A stretch of 64,000 nt of DNA from Cellulophaga algicola DSM 14237. Lineage in GTDB: Bacteria > Bacteroidota > Bacteroidia > Flavobacteriales > Flavobacteriaceae. Positions 6,590 through 63,095 of this stretch are shown in pieces. The notes under the pieces were generated by a model, which was not told the origin of the DNA, did not search any database, and worked only from the letters and a program-made list of their open reading frames with translations. Each line of letters begins with the position of its first letter. Positions within the stretch are counted from its first letter, which is position 1. Location of the stretch: positions 3,410,001 to 3,474,000 of the forward strand of contig NC_014934.1 of assembly GCF_000186265.1 (NCBI RefSeq), given 5' to 3'. The position numbers and the translations under genes are program-made.

Positions 6590-6601
6590 TGACCTAGGTC
6601 A
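6590..6601. promoter_or_regulatory. TGAC-CTAG-GTCA palindrome upstream of ppsA
   Basis: Perfect 12-bp palindrome TGACCTAGGTCA (ATGACCTAGGTCAT over 14 bp) in the 175-bp gap between ppsA and atpD. It fits the Crp/Fnr-like motif TGAY-N4-RTCA seen through the window. On the ppsA side the octamer 23 nt away reads GAGATTCG, only a weak match to TAnnTTTR, so the ppsA promoter position is less certain than others. Confidence 0.6.
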
Positions 6602-6621
6602 TGGAAGAAAAAAATATGGCA

Positions 6622-6664
6622 TGACCTATATCATTTTCTTAACAACTTTTGGATACTACTTTTA
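6622..6664 (+). promoter_or_regulatory. N-ATPase promoter: Crp/Fnr-type site plus -7 box
   Basis: The palindrome TGACCTATATCA (6622-6633) is followed after exactly 23 nt by TACTTTTA (6657-6664), a TAnnTTTR -7 element. The expected transcription start is near 6669, about 21 nt before the atpD ATG, which puts the palindrome centre at about -41.5. This geometry repeats at many other promoters here. Confidence 0.75.
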
Positions 6665-6689
6665 CCACCACATTTACAAGTAGATAAAT

Positions 6690-8195
6690 ATGGCAACGAT
6701 CTTGAAAAATAATAACAGTAAGTCTATTTTGGGTAAAGTAGTTGCCATACGCGGAAGTGTGGTAGATATTTGGTTCGATAAAGATTTACCTTCTATAAAT
6801 ACGCTAATACACACAGGGCCAGAAAATAGTATCGCAATTGAGGTTTTAGCGCAATTAGATGACCGTAGGATTAGAGGTATAGCTTTGACTCCAACACAAG
6901 GCTTGGCAAGGGGTATGATAGCCGAAACAGATGGCGGACAGTTATCCGTTCCTGTAGGTAAAGAGTTAATGGGGCGTATGTTCGATGTCTTTGGTAATAC
7001 CATTGATCACGGAGAAGCTTTACCGGAACTCCCTCGAAAAAATGTACATCAATTGCCGCCACCGTTGTCAAAACGATCTACAAAATCTGAAATTTTTGAA
7101 ACCGGAATAAAAGCTATTGATGTAATGGTACCCTTACAGCATGGTGGTAATGCAGGTTTGTTTGGTGGTGCTGGTGTTGGTAAAACCGTATTACTTACAG
7201 AGATGATCCATAATATGGTGGGATATCACCAAGGTATAAGTATGTTTTGTGGAATTGGTGAACGTTGCCGCGAAGGGCATGAACTGTATCATGATATGAA
7301 AAAGGCCGATGTATTGAAAGATATGGTGATGATGTTCGGGCAAATGAACGAACCGCCAGGAGCTCGTTTTCGGGTAGGTCATGCCGCCTTGACTATGGCC
7401 GAATATTTTAGGGATGATGAACATCGTGATGTGCTTTTGCTTATTGACAATGTGTTTCGTTTTATTCAAGCGGGAATGGAAGTTTCAGGTCTTATGGGGC
7501 AAATGCCATCAAGACTAGGCTACCAGCCTACTTTGGGTACTGAACTAGCTAAATTAGAAGAGCGGATTGCTAATACAGATACGGGAGCCATTACCAGTAT
7601 ACAAGCCGTCTATGTGCCTGCAGATGACCTTACAGATCCCGCCGCTGTGCATACATTTTCTCACCTTTCCGCCTCAATTACTTTATCAAGAAAAAGGGCT
7701 GGTGAGGGACTTTTTCCAGCGATAGACTTATTGCAGTCTAGCTCTAAAATGGCAACACCAGGTGTTATTGGTGAACGTCACTATCACCTTTTACAACAAA
7801 TAAAGCAAACACTGGCCCAATATGAAGAGCTAAAAGATATCATTGCCATGTTAGGTTTGGAACAACTTTCTGTAACGGATCGTGCTACTGTAAACCGAGC
7901 CAGGCGTTTAGAACGGTTTTTTACACAACCTTTCTTTACAACGGAACAGTTTAGCGGACTTAAAGGAAAAGGAGTAAAACTTGAAGATGCTCTTGACGGT
8001 TGCGAACGTATTCTTAAAGATGAATTTAAAGATTTACCGGAGAGCGCTTTCTATATGGTGGGTACTATTGATGAAGCTATAGAAAAGGCTAAAAAAGAGC
8101 CCAAGAAAGAGGATAAGAAAGAACCAAAGGAGGGAGAAAAGAAACCTGACGAGAAAAAAACAAACGCTACCGATAAAGAGGCAGCTAAAGTATAG
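6690..8195 (+). CDS. atpD: N-ATPase subunit beta (catalytic)
   Basis: 501 aa F-type ATPase beta subunit. P-loop GGAGVGKT near residue 158, catalytic [11 protein letters not shown] near 190, and [20 protein letters not shown] in the adenine/catch region. It leads an operon in the order D-C-Q-R-B-E-F-A-G, the hallmark of the laterally spread N-ATPase. The usual DELSEED stretch reads LEQLSVTD, so it has lost acidic residues. The last 35 or so residues form a Lys/Glu/Pro-rich tail not normal for beta subunits. The protein hydrolyses or makes ATP, driving ion flow through the a/c membrane part. Confidence 0.95.
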
Positions 8196-8212
8196 ATCTA
8201 GAACTAACAATA

Positions 8213-8602
8213 ATGGAGTTACATATTTTACTTCCGTTTAAGATATTTCTGAAAATTTCAGGAGTGCGGCGTATAGTGGTAGATACCAATGCCGGTTCGT
8301 ACGGTTTATTACCTCTCCGATTAGATTGTGTTGCTGCTTTAGTCCCTGGCATATTGACATATGAGACAAAGGAAGGTCAAGAGCATTACGTAGCAATGGA
8401 TGAAGGTATACTCACAAAAAGAGATGGTTTTGTAGAAATATCTGTGCGAAATGCAATTTCCGGAGCCAATCTAGGGAAGCTTAGAGATGCAGTAGAAAGC
8501 GAGTTTGTGAACCTAGACGAAGAAGAAAGAGATGTACGGAATGCCGTTGCTAAATTAGAAAGTGAATTTATTCTTGGGATTAAAAAACTTCGTCAATCAT
8601 GA
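8213..8602 (+). CDS. atpC: N-ATPase subunit epsilon
   Basis: 129 aa, the usual size of the epsilon (AtpC) central-stalk subunit. The N-terminal beta-sandwich begins MELHILLPFKIFLKISGVRR with the typical GSYGLLPLRLDCVAAL segment, and a two-helix tail follows. It couples rotation to catalysis and may inhibit ATP hydrolysis. Its stop overlaps the atpQ start by 4 bp (ATGA), indicating translational coupling. The gene order beta then epsilon at the front of the operon is specific for N-ATPases. Confidence 0.88.
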   Translation: MELHILLPFKIFLKISGVRRIVVDTNAGSYGLLPLRLDCVAALVPGILTYETKEGQEHYVAMDEGILTKRDGFVEISVRNAISGANLGKLRDAVESEFVNLDEEERDVRNAVAKLESEFILGIKKLRQS

Positions 8603-61255: not shown

Positions 61256-61298
61256 TAAAATTAACGGGAGTAAAGAAACTTATCCATGATATTTATCA
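61256..61298 (-). promoter_or_regulatory. UspA promoter overlapping the upstream gene end
   Basis: TGATATTTATCA (61287-61298), 23 nt, then TAATTTTA on the minus strand (61256-61263), both perfect. The last three bases of the operator are the stop codon of the upstream UspA gene. Predicted start near 61251, leader about 23 nt. Confidence 0.8.
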
Positions 61299-62144
61299 TT
61301 CCTTATTGGGAAGAATTAGAAATGGAATATTAGCATACATACTCACATCTTTTATGACAGGTTCACGCATTAGTTTTTCAAGAAAACTTCTTTTTTGATG
61401 TACCATACAGAATAGGTCTATTTCTCTTTCTGATATAAATTCATTGATTACTTGTGCTTTTTCATTAAAATCTTTCATCGTGGAGAAAGAGTGTTTAACA
61501 TCTTTAAGACAATTTTCTAATAATTTATATTTGAGTTCTTGCTCTGCATCTAAGCTAGCTTCTTCAATAATATGCATAACTCTTATTGCAGCATTGGTTT
61601 GCTTTGCAATAAATAGTAAAGGTTCAATATTATTTAAGGAACACCCTTGCTTAAAATCGGTCACAAAAGCAATTTCTTTAGGAGCTTTATAGTCTATCTG
61701 TTTAGGGATAGCTAGAATAGGACAGTTGGTAATGGTATTTGTAATTTGAATGGTATTGCTTCCAAAGAACAATTCTTTAGCACCAGTTTCTCCTTTGCTA
61801 CCTATCAAAACAAGATCTATATCATATTCTTTAGTTACATTTTTTATATTCTTAGAAAGATTACCTTCTTTAGAAAGCGGAATAAACTTATGATTAGGAT
61901 TTTCGGTATCTAAGGTTATTTTATGAAGTAATTTCTCTAAAGCAGTATTAGATTGCGTTTCAATTTCACCTAGCTCATTTTTATTGGATAAAAAAGGAGC
62001 TCTTTTGTTTTTTAGGGGAGTAAGCTCATCGTAAACATTGAGAATATAAAATGTACAAGAGGTTTCTTTAAATAATTTTGTTCCGTAAAACAACGCACAG
62101 TAGGCATCATTAGAAAAGTCGGTAGCTACTAATATAGATTTCAT
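61296..62144 (-). CDS. Universal stress protein, two-domain
   Basis: 282 aa. Domain one MKSILVATDFSNDAYCALFY with nucleotide motif IGSKGETGAKELFFGSNTIQ near residue 122. The second half begins PKEIAFVTDFKQGCSLNN and is degenerate at the nucleotide site. It lies between two paralogues, 17 bp downstream of one, so it is probably cotranscribed from 63.02 kb. Its stop codon doubles as part of the operator of the next UspA gene. Confidence 0.9.
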   Translation of the reverse strand: MKSILVATDFSNDAYCALFYGTKLFKETSCTFYILNVYDELTPLKNKRAPFLSNKNELGEIETQSNTALEKLLHKITLDTENPNHKFIPLSKEGNLSKNIKNVTKEYDIDLVLIGSKGETGAKELFFGSNTIQITNTITNCPILAIPKQIDYKAPKEIAFVTDFKQGCSLNNIEPLLFIAKQTNAAIRVMHIIEEASLDAEQELKYKLLENCLKDVKHSFSTMKDFNEKAQVINEFISEREIDLFCMVHQKRSFLEKLMREPVIKDVSMYANIPFLILPNKE

Positions 62145-62161
62145 TTTATAATTTTATAATT

Positions 62162-62998
62162 TTATAATTGTGGAATTACCATTAAAGGCACATTGACATG
62201 GAATCCTATTTTTTTTATGATAGGTTCCATGAACAATCGCTCAAAAAAAGTATGTTTGTTTTGAATCATGACAAGTAGATTAATTTTCTTTTTTAATTGA
62301 AAATCATTTACAGCCGCAATAATTTCATTGTCTGGCACATCATGAAAAGTTGCATAATTAACCAGCAGTTGGTCTAATTGCTTTTTGTGTTCCTTTTGTA
62401 CGATATCAAGTTCATTACCGGTTCGCACATGCATAATATTTATTTGTGATTGATGCTGTTTTACAATTTGTAAAAGCCCCTCAATTTCTTTTTTAGGATA
62501 GGTTATTTCAAAATCTGTAGGAAATAGAATTTCTTTAGGTGCTTCGTATTCAAAAGAATCGGGTACTACAATCACCGGACATTTAGTGCGTTTGATAATA
62601 CTAACGGCGTTGCTGCCAAATAGAATTTCTTGGGCACCAGAGGCTCCTTTTGTACCCATGACAACAAGATCAATTTTTTCTGAAGTCGTCATTTCAAGAA
62701 TTTCATTCAAAAGTGTGTTAAAAACTGTATGCGTTTTTATAGTATGCTTAGGGTTAGGGTGTTCTGTTTCAATTTTATTTTTTAATTCATCCATTCTGGA
62801 CACAGCTGTTTCTCTCATTACATCTCCTAAACCAATTAAGCCTGGACTGCCAATAAGGTATTCTGCTTGGTAAACTGTTGGATTATACGTGTGTAAAAGA
62901 TAAAAGGTACATTTTATGTTTTTATAAACTTTTAAAGCATATTCAATAGCCTTATAGGAATTTTCAGAAAAATCAGTAGGAAGCAATATTTTTTTCAT
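62162..62998 (-). CDS. Universal stress protein, two-domain
   Basis: 278 aa. Domain one MKKILLPTDFSENSYKAIEY, nucleotide motif VVMGTKGASGAQEILFGSNA near residue 115 with the full G-x2-G-x9-G-S pattern. The second half (PKEILFPTDFEITYPKKE) has no such motif. The first gene behind the symmetric operator it shares with thioredoxin. Tandem duplication is evident from the near-identical layout of the four UspA genes here. Confidence 0.9.
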   Translation of the reverse strand: MKKILLPTDFSENSYKAIEYALKVYKNIKCTFYLLHTYNPTVYQAEYLIGSPGLIGLGDVMRETAVSRMDELKNKIETEHPNPKHTIKTHTVFNTLLNEILEMTTSEKIDLVVMGTKGASGAQEILFGSNAVSIIKRTKCPVIVVPDSFEYEAPKEILFPTDFEITYPKKEIEGLLQIVKQHQSQINIMHVRTGNELDIVQKEHKKQLDQLLVNYATFHDVPDNEIIAAVNDFQLKKKINLLVMIQNKHTFFERLFMEPIIKKIGFHVNVPLMVIPQL

Positions 62999-63021
62999 GA
63001 CGCTTTAATTTTACGTTGGAA

Positions 63022-63095
63022 TAAAATTACCCAACTTCATGCTATAAAAGAATGATATATATCAGGTCTTTACTGTTCTATATGTTATAAATTTA
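63022..63095. promoter_or_regulatory. One palindrome driving divergent uspA and thioredoxin promoters
   Basis: TGATATATATCA (63053-63064) has a perfect -7 box on each side at exactly 23 nt: TAATTTTA on the minus strand (63022-63029) for the UspA gene and TAAATTTA on the plus strand (63088-63095) for thioredoxin. A single bound dimer could serve both. The starts would be near 63017 and 63100. Confidence 0.8.

Follow-up and report, generated by a model that had tools for sequence, protein, structure and literature searches.

A Crp/Fnr-type operator rigidly phased with the -7 box as a probable low-oxygen promoter class of Cellulophaga algicola and other Flavobacteriaceae

In a stretch of 64,000 nt of the marine bacterium Cellulophaga algicola DSM 14237 (the window, which lies within the single 4.888-Mb contig of the genome) eight sites carry a composite element in which a palindromic Crp/Fnr-type operator is followed, at a spacing of exactly 23 nt, by the Bacteroidota -7 box TAnnTTTR. 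We suggest, with a probability of roughly 0.7, that these are class II activator promoters of a low-oxygen programme run by two proteins, an FNR-like protein and a protein which unites a response regulator receiver and a Crp-type domain in one chain (REC-Crp). Judged from the sequence, the composite is a real, rigid and family-wide class II promoter class, and the system behind it is most likely a flavobacterial FNR/FixK-like low-oxygen regulon with the receiver–Crp fusion as main activator. All site positions are window coordinates unless a genome position is stated.

The palindrome TGAYNNNNRTCA occurs 15 times in the window, whereas 100 dinucleotide shuffles contained 3.84 copies on average and nine at most. 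Seven of these palindromes are followed at 23 nt by TANNTTTR and give eight exact composites, as one palindrome is common to two genes. This is the same set that had been named in the original prediction, all coordinates of which we could confirm:

6622..6664, plus strand, exact composite of the N-ATPase operon (atpD 6690-8195)
18121..18163, minus strand, exact composite of the mlaE operon (mlaE 17310-18086)
18200..18242, plus strand, exact composite of the ClC channel gene clc (18283-19608)
19689..19731, plus strand, exact composite of crpA, a Crp-family gene that is itself a target (19758-20465)
33606..33648, minus strand, exact composite of a gene for a 72-aa protein (33326-33544), which is followed by a gene at 32945-33310
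61256..61298, minus strand, exact composite of a universal stress protein gene (60389-61228)
63022..63064, minus strand, exact composite of a universal stress protein gene (62162-62998), palindrome common to the thioredoxin site
63053..63095, plus strand, exact composite of a thioredoxin gene (63118-63414), palindrome common to the preceding site
15463..15505, minus strand, near-composite of enolase (14088-15359), one box mismatch at 23 nt
34607..34649, minus strand, near-composite of crpB (33910-34590), one box mismatch at 23 nt
56875..56918, plus strand, weak site of a phospholipase D/cls-like gene (56940-58343), palindrome with a TATCTTAG box at 24 nt

The imperfect enolase and crpB boxes and the 24-nt spacing at cls had been foreseen as well; the cls box has in addition one mismatch. 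When up to two mismatches are allowed, the window yields 18 matches compared with a shuffle mean of 7.96 and a maximum of 14, and as this excess is modest only the exact and near-exact sites stand out.

In the whole genome the exact composite is present 35 times and the reversed pattern twice. A scan of spacers from 10 to 38 nt returned 82 sites: 35 of them have the 23-nt spacer, and the other 47 are scattered over the remaining 28 spacings (∼1.7 each). The reversed control gave 43 sites over all 29 spacings. The background of 47 sites per 28 spacings in 4.89 Mb corresponds to 0.022 chance composites per 64 kb, practically the value of 0.02 that had been estimated beforehand. Nearly all own sites (34/35) are intergenic, that is, not wholly inside an open reading frame (ORF) of at least 100 aa, and 21 of the 35 are located in an island of 109 kb (genome position 3.383–3.493 Mb) which includes the window. 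The suspicion that the composite might be equally frequent by chance or within coding sequence is thus not borne out by the genome. In an AT-rich genome some matches may be fortuitous; about 1.7 chance composites are expected per genome, and the site at genome position 2155994 inside a 612-aa ORF is probably one of them. However, as an origin of the whole class chance has a practically negligible probability and was rejected on the basis of the shuffles, the reversed control, the spacing peak and the excess throughout the family.

This excess was determined in 119 genomes of the Flavobacteriaceae, one per genus. They contain 1866 composites versus 70 in the reversed control, and at least one site is found in 112 of the 119 genomes; the switch recurs in most sampled genera of the family. 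Across the phylum 149 of 296 genomes match, with high numbers in the family, moderate numbers in some related families and values near background in most others. The spacing is also reproduced at 80 N-ATPase loci of other genomes (1.39 Mb from several phyla), which contain 24 sites at 23 nt and nine over all other spacings (three at 22 nt and six singletons) versus one site in the reversed sequence. Enough upstream sequence was available for 79 of these loci, which were assigned to Bacteroidota or to another phylum by their record titles. An exact composite precedes the N-ATPase operon in 8 of the 52 Bacteroidota loci and one with a box mismatch in a further locus, while 43 lack it, and it was found before the operon in none of the 27 loci from other phyla. 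The N-ATPase beta subunit of C. algicola is 95% identical to that of Zobellia barbeyronii over 464 residues. Far outside the Flavobacteriaceae, a genome of another family of the phylum (G383, family f46) has 28 composites with a control of 0 and encodes an FNR-like protein at 41% identity.

The position of the operator relative to the transcription start can be transferred from Flavobacterium psychrophilum, where the box TAnnTTTG lies at -12 to -5 of the mapped starts (PMC9723704, in excerpt). With this assignment the centre of the palindrome would be at -41.5, which is the class II position, and the fixed phase expected of a class II promoter is seen in the 35 exact sites out of 82 that share the 23-nt spacing. 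The predicted arrangement, in which a Crp/Fnr-type operator keeps a strict phase with the -7 box of the Bacteroidota, is therefore upheld, far above chance. No conserved TTTG is present at -33 in the 35 own sites, which fits dependence on an activator. One might argue that the operator serves mainly for repression and that the rigid spacing reflects occlusion and not class II contact, since the centre at -41.5 overlaps the -33 region where no TTTG is conserved. Occlusion, however, would tolerate many spacings, whereas only four sites at 22 nt and five at 24 nt stand against the 35 at 23 nt. In addition, the cbb3 oxidase and haem-synthesis genes of F. psychrophilum, which were not tied to this operator in the excerpted report, go up under oxygen limitation (PMC9723704). 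This induction fits the low-oxygen reading and, together with the missing -33 motif, makes repression very improbable in our view.

The operator extends to ATGAYNNNNRTCAT. Among the 35 own sites the outer base 0 is mostly A (16) or C (14), with T at 3 sites and G at 2; at base 13 T predominates (25), followed by G (8) and A (2). As the outer base is rarely T, the half-site is not TTGAT and the operator does not correspond to the FNR box (TTGATnnnnATCAA).

Two types of protein, encoded outside the window, come into consideration as the more likely activators (genome positions):

G000:C1:2228817 (2.229 Mb), FNR-like protein P0001, encoded one gene away from ccoNO
G000:C1:3391191 (3.391 Mb), REC-Crp P0005, 355 aa, with Response_reg, cNMP_binding and HTH_Crp_2 in one chain
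3.476 Mb, paralog of REC-Crp, encoded behind a 628-aa kinase

In alignments of 31 rows each (the query and 30 loci, its own included) cysteines 9, 12, 58 and 111 of P0001 and the phospho-acceptor aspartate of P0005 are invariant. When P0001 is aligned with the FNR-type regulator 9qlt, Cys111 coincides with the central cysteine of the latter. Both proteins have, in every row, Glu and Arg at the positions 181 and 185 of CRP and lack Arg180. According to the specificity rule for residues 180 and 181 of the Crp/Fnr family (PMC1274295, in excerpt), this combination predicts binding to xTGA rather than GTGA half-sites. A full-length REC-Crp structure was not found among the best 60 of 128 PDB sequences.

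The number of composites follows the presence of these regulators. Genomes that encode both regulators (n = 34) have a median of 27 composites, those with REC-Crp alone (n = 26) 17, those with the FNR-like protein alone (n = 45) 9 and those lacking both (n = 14) 0.5, while the control means are 0.5–0.7 in all four groups. A regression with genome size as covariate gave t = 12.0 for REC-Crp and 6.2 for the FNR-like protein (R2 0.65). REC-Crp was counted when matched over its full length, which holds for 60 of 62 listed genomes (G002 and G018 were dropped as partial); in G055, G078, G107 and G109 of the 60 the best match has one stop inside the aligned stretch. An FNR-like ortholog, taken as a best place of at least 42% identity, is present in 79 genomes, with G035 and G015 aligning only from residue 40. 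In two REC-only and four FNR-only genomes the operators have largely similar base counts, and it thus seems that both proteins read one operator.

It is conceivable, but in our opinion unlikely, that the FNR-like protein is the sole activator and that REC-Crp controls something else and merely co-occurs. The FNR-like protein is of the classical low-oxygen regulator type, and FNR-only genomes clearly exceed those with neither regulator and have the sites at ccoN and hemN included. On the other hand, the 26 genomes that have REC-Crp but lack a close ortholog of the FNR-like protein contain even more sites, and composites at ccoN and hemN were present in the two of them that were examined. Moreover, composites are found near the REC-Crp and kinase genes themselves, as described next.

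In all 20 REC-Crp loci that were fetched a histidine kinase gene is located just upstream; for one of them, G021, it was read from the ORF list. The kinase gene in front of P0005 encodes a GAF domain and several PAS domains and has the composite in its promoter. Two arrangements can be distinguished. In type A, REC-Crp lies behind a long multi-PAS kinase and a composite is present upstream of the kinase ORF in 9/9 loci, within 450 nt in seven of them. In type B, REC-Crp follows a FixL-like kinase of 409–628 aa and in 8/11 loci a composite is found just behind REC-Crp (in the own case at a universal stress protein gene). A match to FixL (2.6e-14) was obtained for the PAS domain of the own type-B kinase; it aligns the histidine that ligates the haem, and haem binding is predicted. 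By eye this histidine was read in 11/11 type-B kinases. The first PAS domain of type A matches haem-PAS proteins more weakly (DosP 3.7e-8, FixL 5.3e-6). CRP binds cAMP in a pocket with Arg82 and Ser83. As REC-Crp has Tyr-Thr in these places in an alignment to CRP, cAMP was rejected as its ligand.

The original prediction had proposed two other Crp-family proteins encoded in the window as regulators:

33910..34590, minus strand, crpB
42121..42840, plus strand, crpC (start perhaps 42145)

Both sit in the island, their recognition helices keep Glu and Arg, and the crpB promoter is a near-composite. Nevertheless, relatives of both (E ≤ 1e-35) occur in the same 5 of the 119 family genomes only, compared with 112 for the composite. 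As general regulators they were therefore rejected and a dedicated role has hardly any probability left, although they may read some of these operators locally. The third Crp-family protein of the window, crpA, was rejected as regulator because it has Pro at the position of the Glu that reads TGA (rule of PMC1274295) and is itself a target. Its recognition helix is RPVVNR; with Pro in place of Glu it should read a different half-site and might constitute a second regulatory tier.

The predicted targets point to oxygen limitation. In the own genome, targets outside the window comprise the ccoNO genes of the cbb3 oxidase, hemN and the gene of the FNR-like protein itself, and six universal stress protein genes (by similarity; two of them in the window) have a composite. 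Further targets are a cytochrome c, a di-haem peroxidase, a ferritin-domain (Dps-like) protein, pyruvate kinase, aldehyde dehydrogenase, MCRA, CMD, an ABC1 kinase, a pyridoxamine-oxidase-like protein, DHBP synthase, glycerol-3-phosphate dehydrogenase, an asparaginase, YtxH and a multi-PAS kinase. Six other genomes with 91 sites, 89 of which have an ORF of at least 60 aa within 350 nt, were compared. In 6/6 the composite is found at ccoN, hemN and a universal stress protein gene, so that control of ccoN and hemN by the operator is predicted for the own genome as well as for the 2/2 REC-only and 4/4 FNR-only genomes examined. The distance between box and start is 206–258 nt for ccoN and 8–62 nt for hemN; over 122 predicted targets of the seven genomes the median from the box end to the start codon is 27 nt. 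An mlaE-like gene is also a target in G021 and G115, and many other targets of the six genomes were found in one genome only. Probably, the switch turns on low-oxygen and stress genes.

Several observations weigh against the proposed low-oxygen regulon and its two activators. The correlation between site number and regulators was not corrected for descent, the 42% identity cut-off for FNR-like orthologs is our own choice, and one genome (G112) has ten sites with neither regulator, its own control being 3. The seven-genome check covered genomes picked for high site counts, with G112 as the outlier. The comparison of targets covers 6 of the 118 other genomes, namely those whose sites came first in the site list. 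The 4Fe-4S cluster of Escherichia coli FNR is ligated by C20, C23, C29 and C122. In P0001 C9, C12 and C111 align with these ligands (by the match to 9qlt) but the third position is Asn; P0001 also scores 105.5 bits where the NCBIfam Fnr cut-off is 228 (NF008365), and among 30 FNR-like genes no more than 9 are preceded by an exact composite at a distance of up to 300 nt. As to the kinases, the histidine of the first PAS domain is missing in at least two of seven aligned long type-A orthologs (read by eye). The composite lies 0.6–0.9 kb before the kinase ORF in two of the nine type-A loci, where it may serve another gene, and three of the 11 type-B loci have no composite behind REC-Crp.

With these reservations we propose the following mechanism. 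The composite would be a class II promoter that the housekeeping sigma factor uses with the help of an activator. This activator, a dimer of Crp/Fnr type, would bind to ATGAY-N4-RTCAT with its centre at -41.5, in the region normally taken by the -33 element, and recruit the polymerase to the TAnnTTTG -7 box. One candidate activator is the FNR-like protein, in which four cysteines are invariant and whose gene lies at a distance of one gene from the cbb3 oxidase operon. The other is REC-Crp. It would receive its phosphate from the product of the adjacent upstream kinase gene; in the more frequent kinase type the PAS domain is similar to the haem PAS domain with which FixL senses oxygen. By reading the same operator, both activators would switch on a low-oxygen programme consisting of the high-affinity oxidase, anaerobic haem synthesis, c-type cytochromes, universal stress proteins and lower glycolysis and also of ion and membrane homeostasis (N-ATPase, ClC, Mla). 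The FixJ receiver and the FixK DNA-binding domain would here be one protein. In its most specific form, namely that a FixL-type oxygen-sensing kinase acts on the receiver–Crp fusion, that this fusion shares the -41.5 operator grammar with an FNR of unusual make-up (Cys58 in addition to three of the four classical cysteines), and that the two, jointly or singly, govern dozens of promoters throughout the family as a low-oxygen regulon, we hold this scheme to be somewhat better than an even bet.

In rhizobia (Alphaproteobacteria) the FixL-FixJ-FixK cascade uses FixJ with a LuxR-type output to drive fixK. The system described here resembles it in the FixL-like PAS kinase with aligned haem histidine, the predicted receiver phosphorylation, the Crp/Fnr-type domain and the presence of the cbb3 oxidase and hemN among the predicted targets. 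It differs in that receiver and Crp-type domain are not separate proteins, and also in the phylum and the sigma-factor box. With FNR/ANR regulons it shares the TGAT/C half-site, the class II position, the CxxC motif and central cysteine of P0001 and the targets cco, hemN and usp; unlike in these regulons, the outer operator base is A or C and rarely T, and P0001 has Asn at the third E. coli-type cysteine and the additional invariant Cys58. The predicted two-component low-oxygen control of many universal stress proteins is reminiscent of the actinobacterial DosR/DevR dormancy regulon (PMC5069765, in excerpt), but the DNA-binding domain is Crp-type here and not LuxR-type. HcpR, DNR and NnrR belong to the Crp/Fnr family as well and the rule for residues 180 and 181 applies (PMC1274295). 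However, for HcpR2 the excerpt of this study predicts, in most species of Bacteroides, a regulon of hcp genes alone with the motif GTAACnnnnGTTAC, and motif and gene set are different here.

The author of the original prediction knew of no described regulon of this kind. This is right in part: our literature searches, made in a limited library, found no FNR or REC-Crp regulon in the Flavobacteriaceae, yet the gene set (cbb3 oxidase, hemN, universal stress proteins, cytochromes) is that of the known low-oxygen regulons of the FNR/FixK/ANR type. A Flavobacteriales Crp homolog from an anammox microbiome was placed in a MalR-like group (PMC8510549, in excerpt). On the strength of the counts in the 119 genomes the composite appears to be a predictive promoter grammar. 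It names two testable activators, indicates a two-component system that merges receiver and Crp-type activator, and would offer a clean setting in which to study how class II activators work with the unusual sigma factor of the Bacteroidota.

Some minor observations concern single sites. The palindromes at 5040, 6590, 20264, 32458 and 33576 have no box with up to one mismatch at 22–24 nt. The one at 6590-6601 (TGACCTAGGTCA) is a perfect palindrome in the gap between atpD and the gene resembling PEP synthase, and might act as an auxiliary operator. The 72-aa protein has no Pfam match. Two of the own sites have no ORF of at least 60 aa within 350 nt, and no curated RNA family (Rfam) was found in their loci. 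One of them, the exact composite at G000:C1:3405541-3405583 (plus strand; locus L112), might be the promoter of a small RNA, or it might simply arise from the divergent site 3405552 on the minus strand. At the other, site 658752 on the minus strand, a 42-aa ORF for a small membrane-like peptide begins ∼24 nt after the box (L124:2058-2186, G000:C1 ∼658.6 kb), so that the composite can point to small genes.

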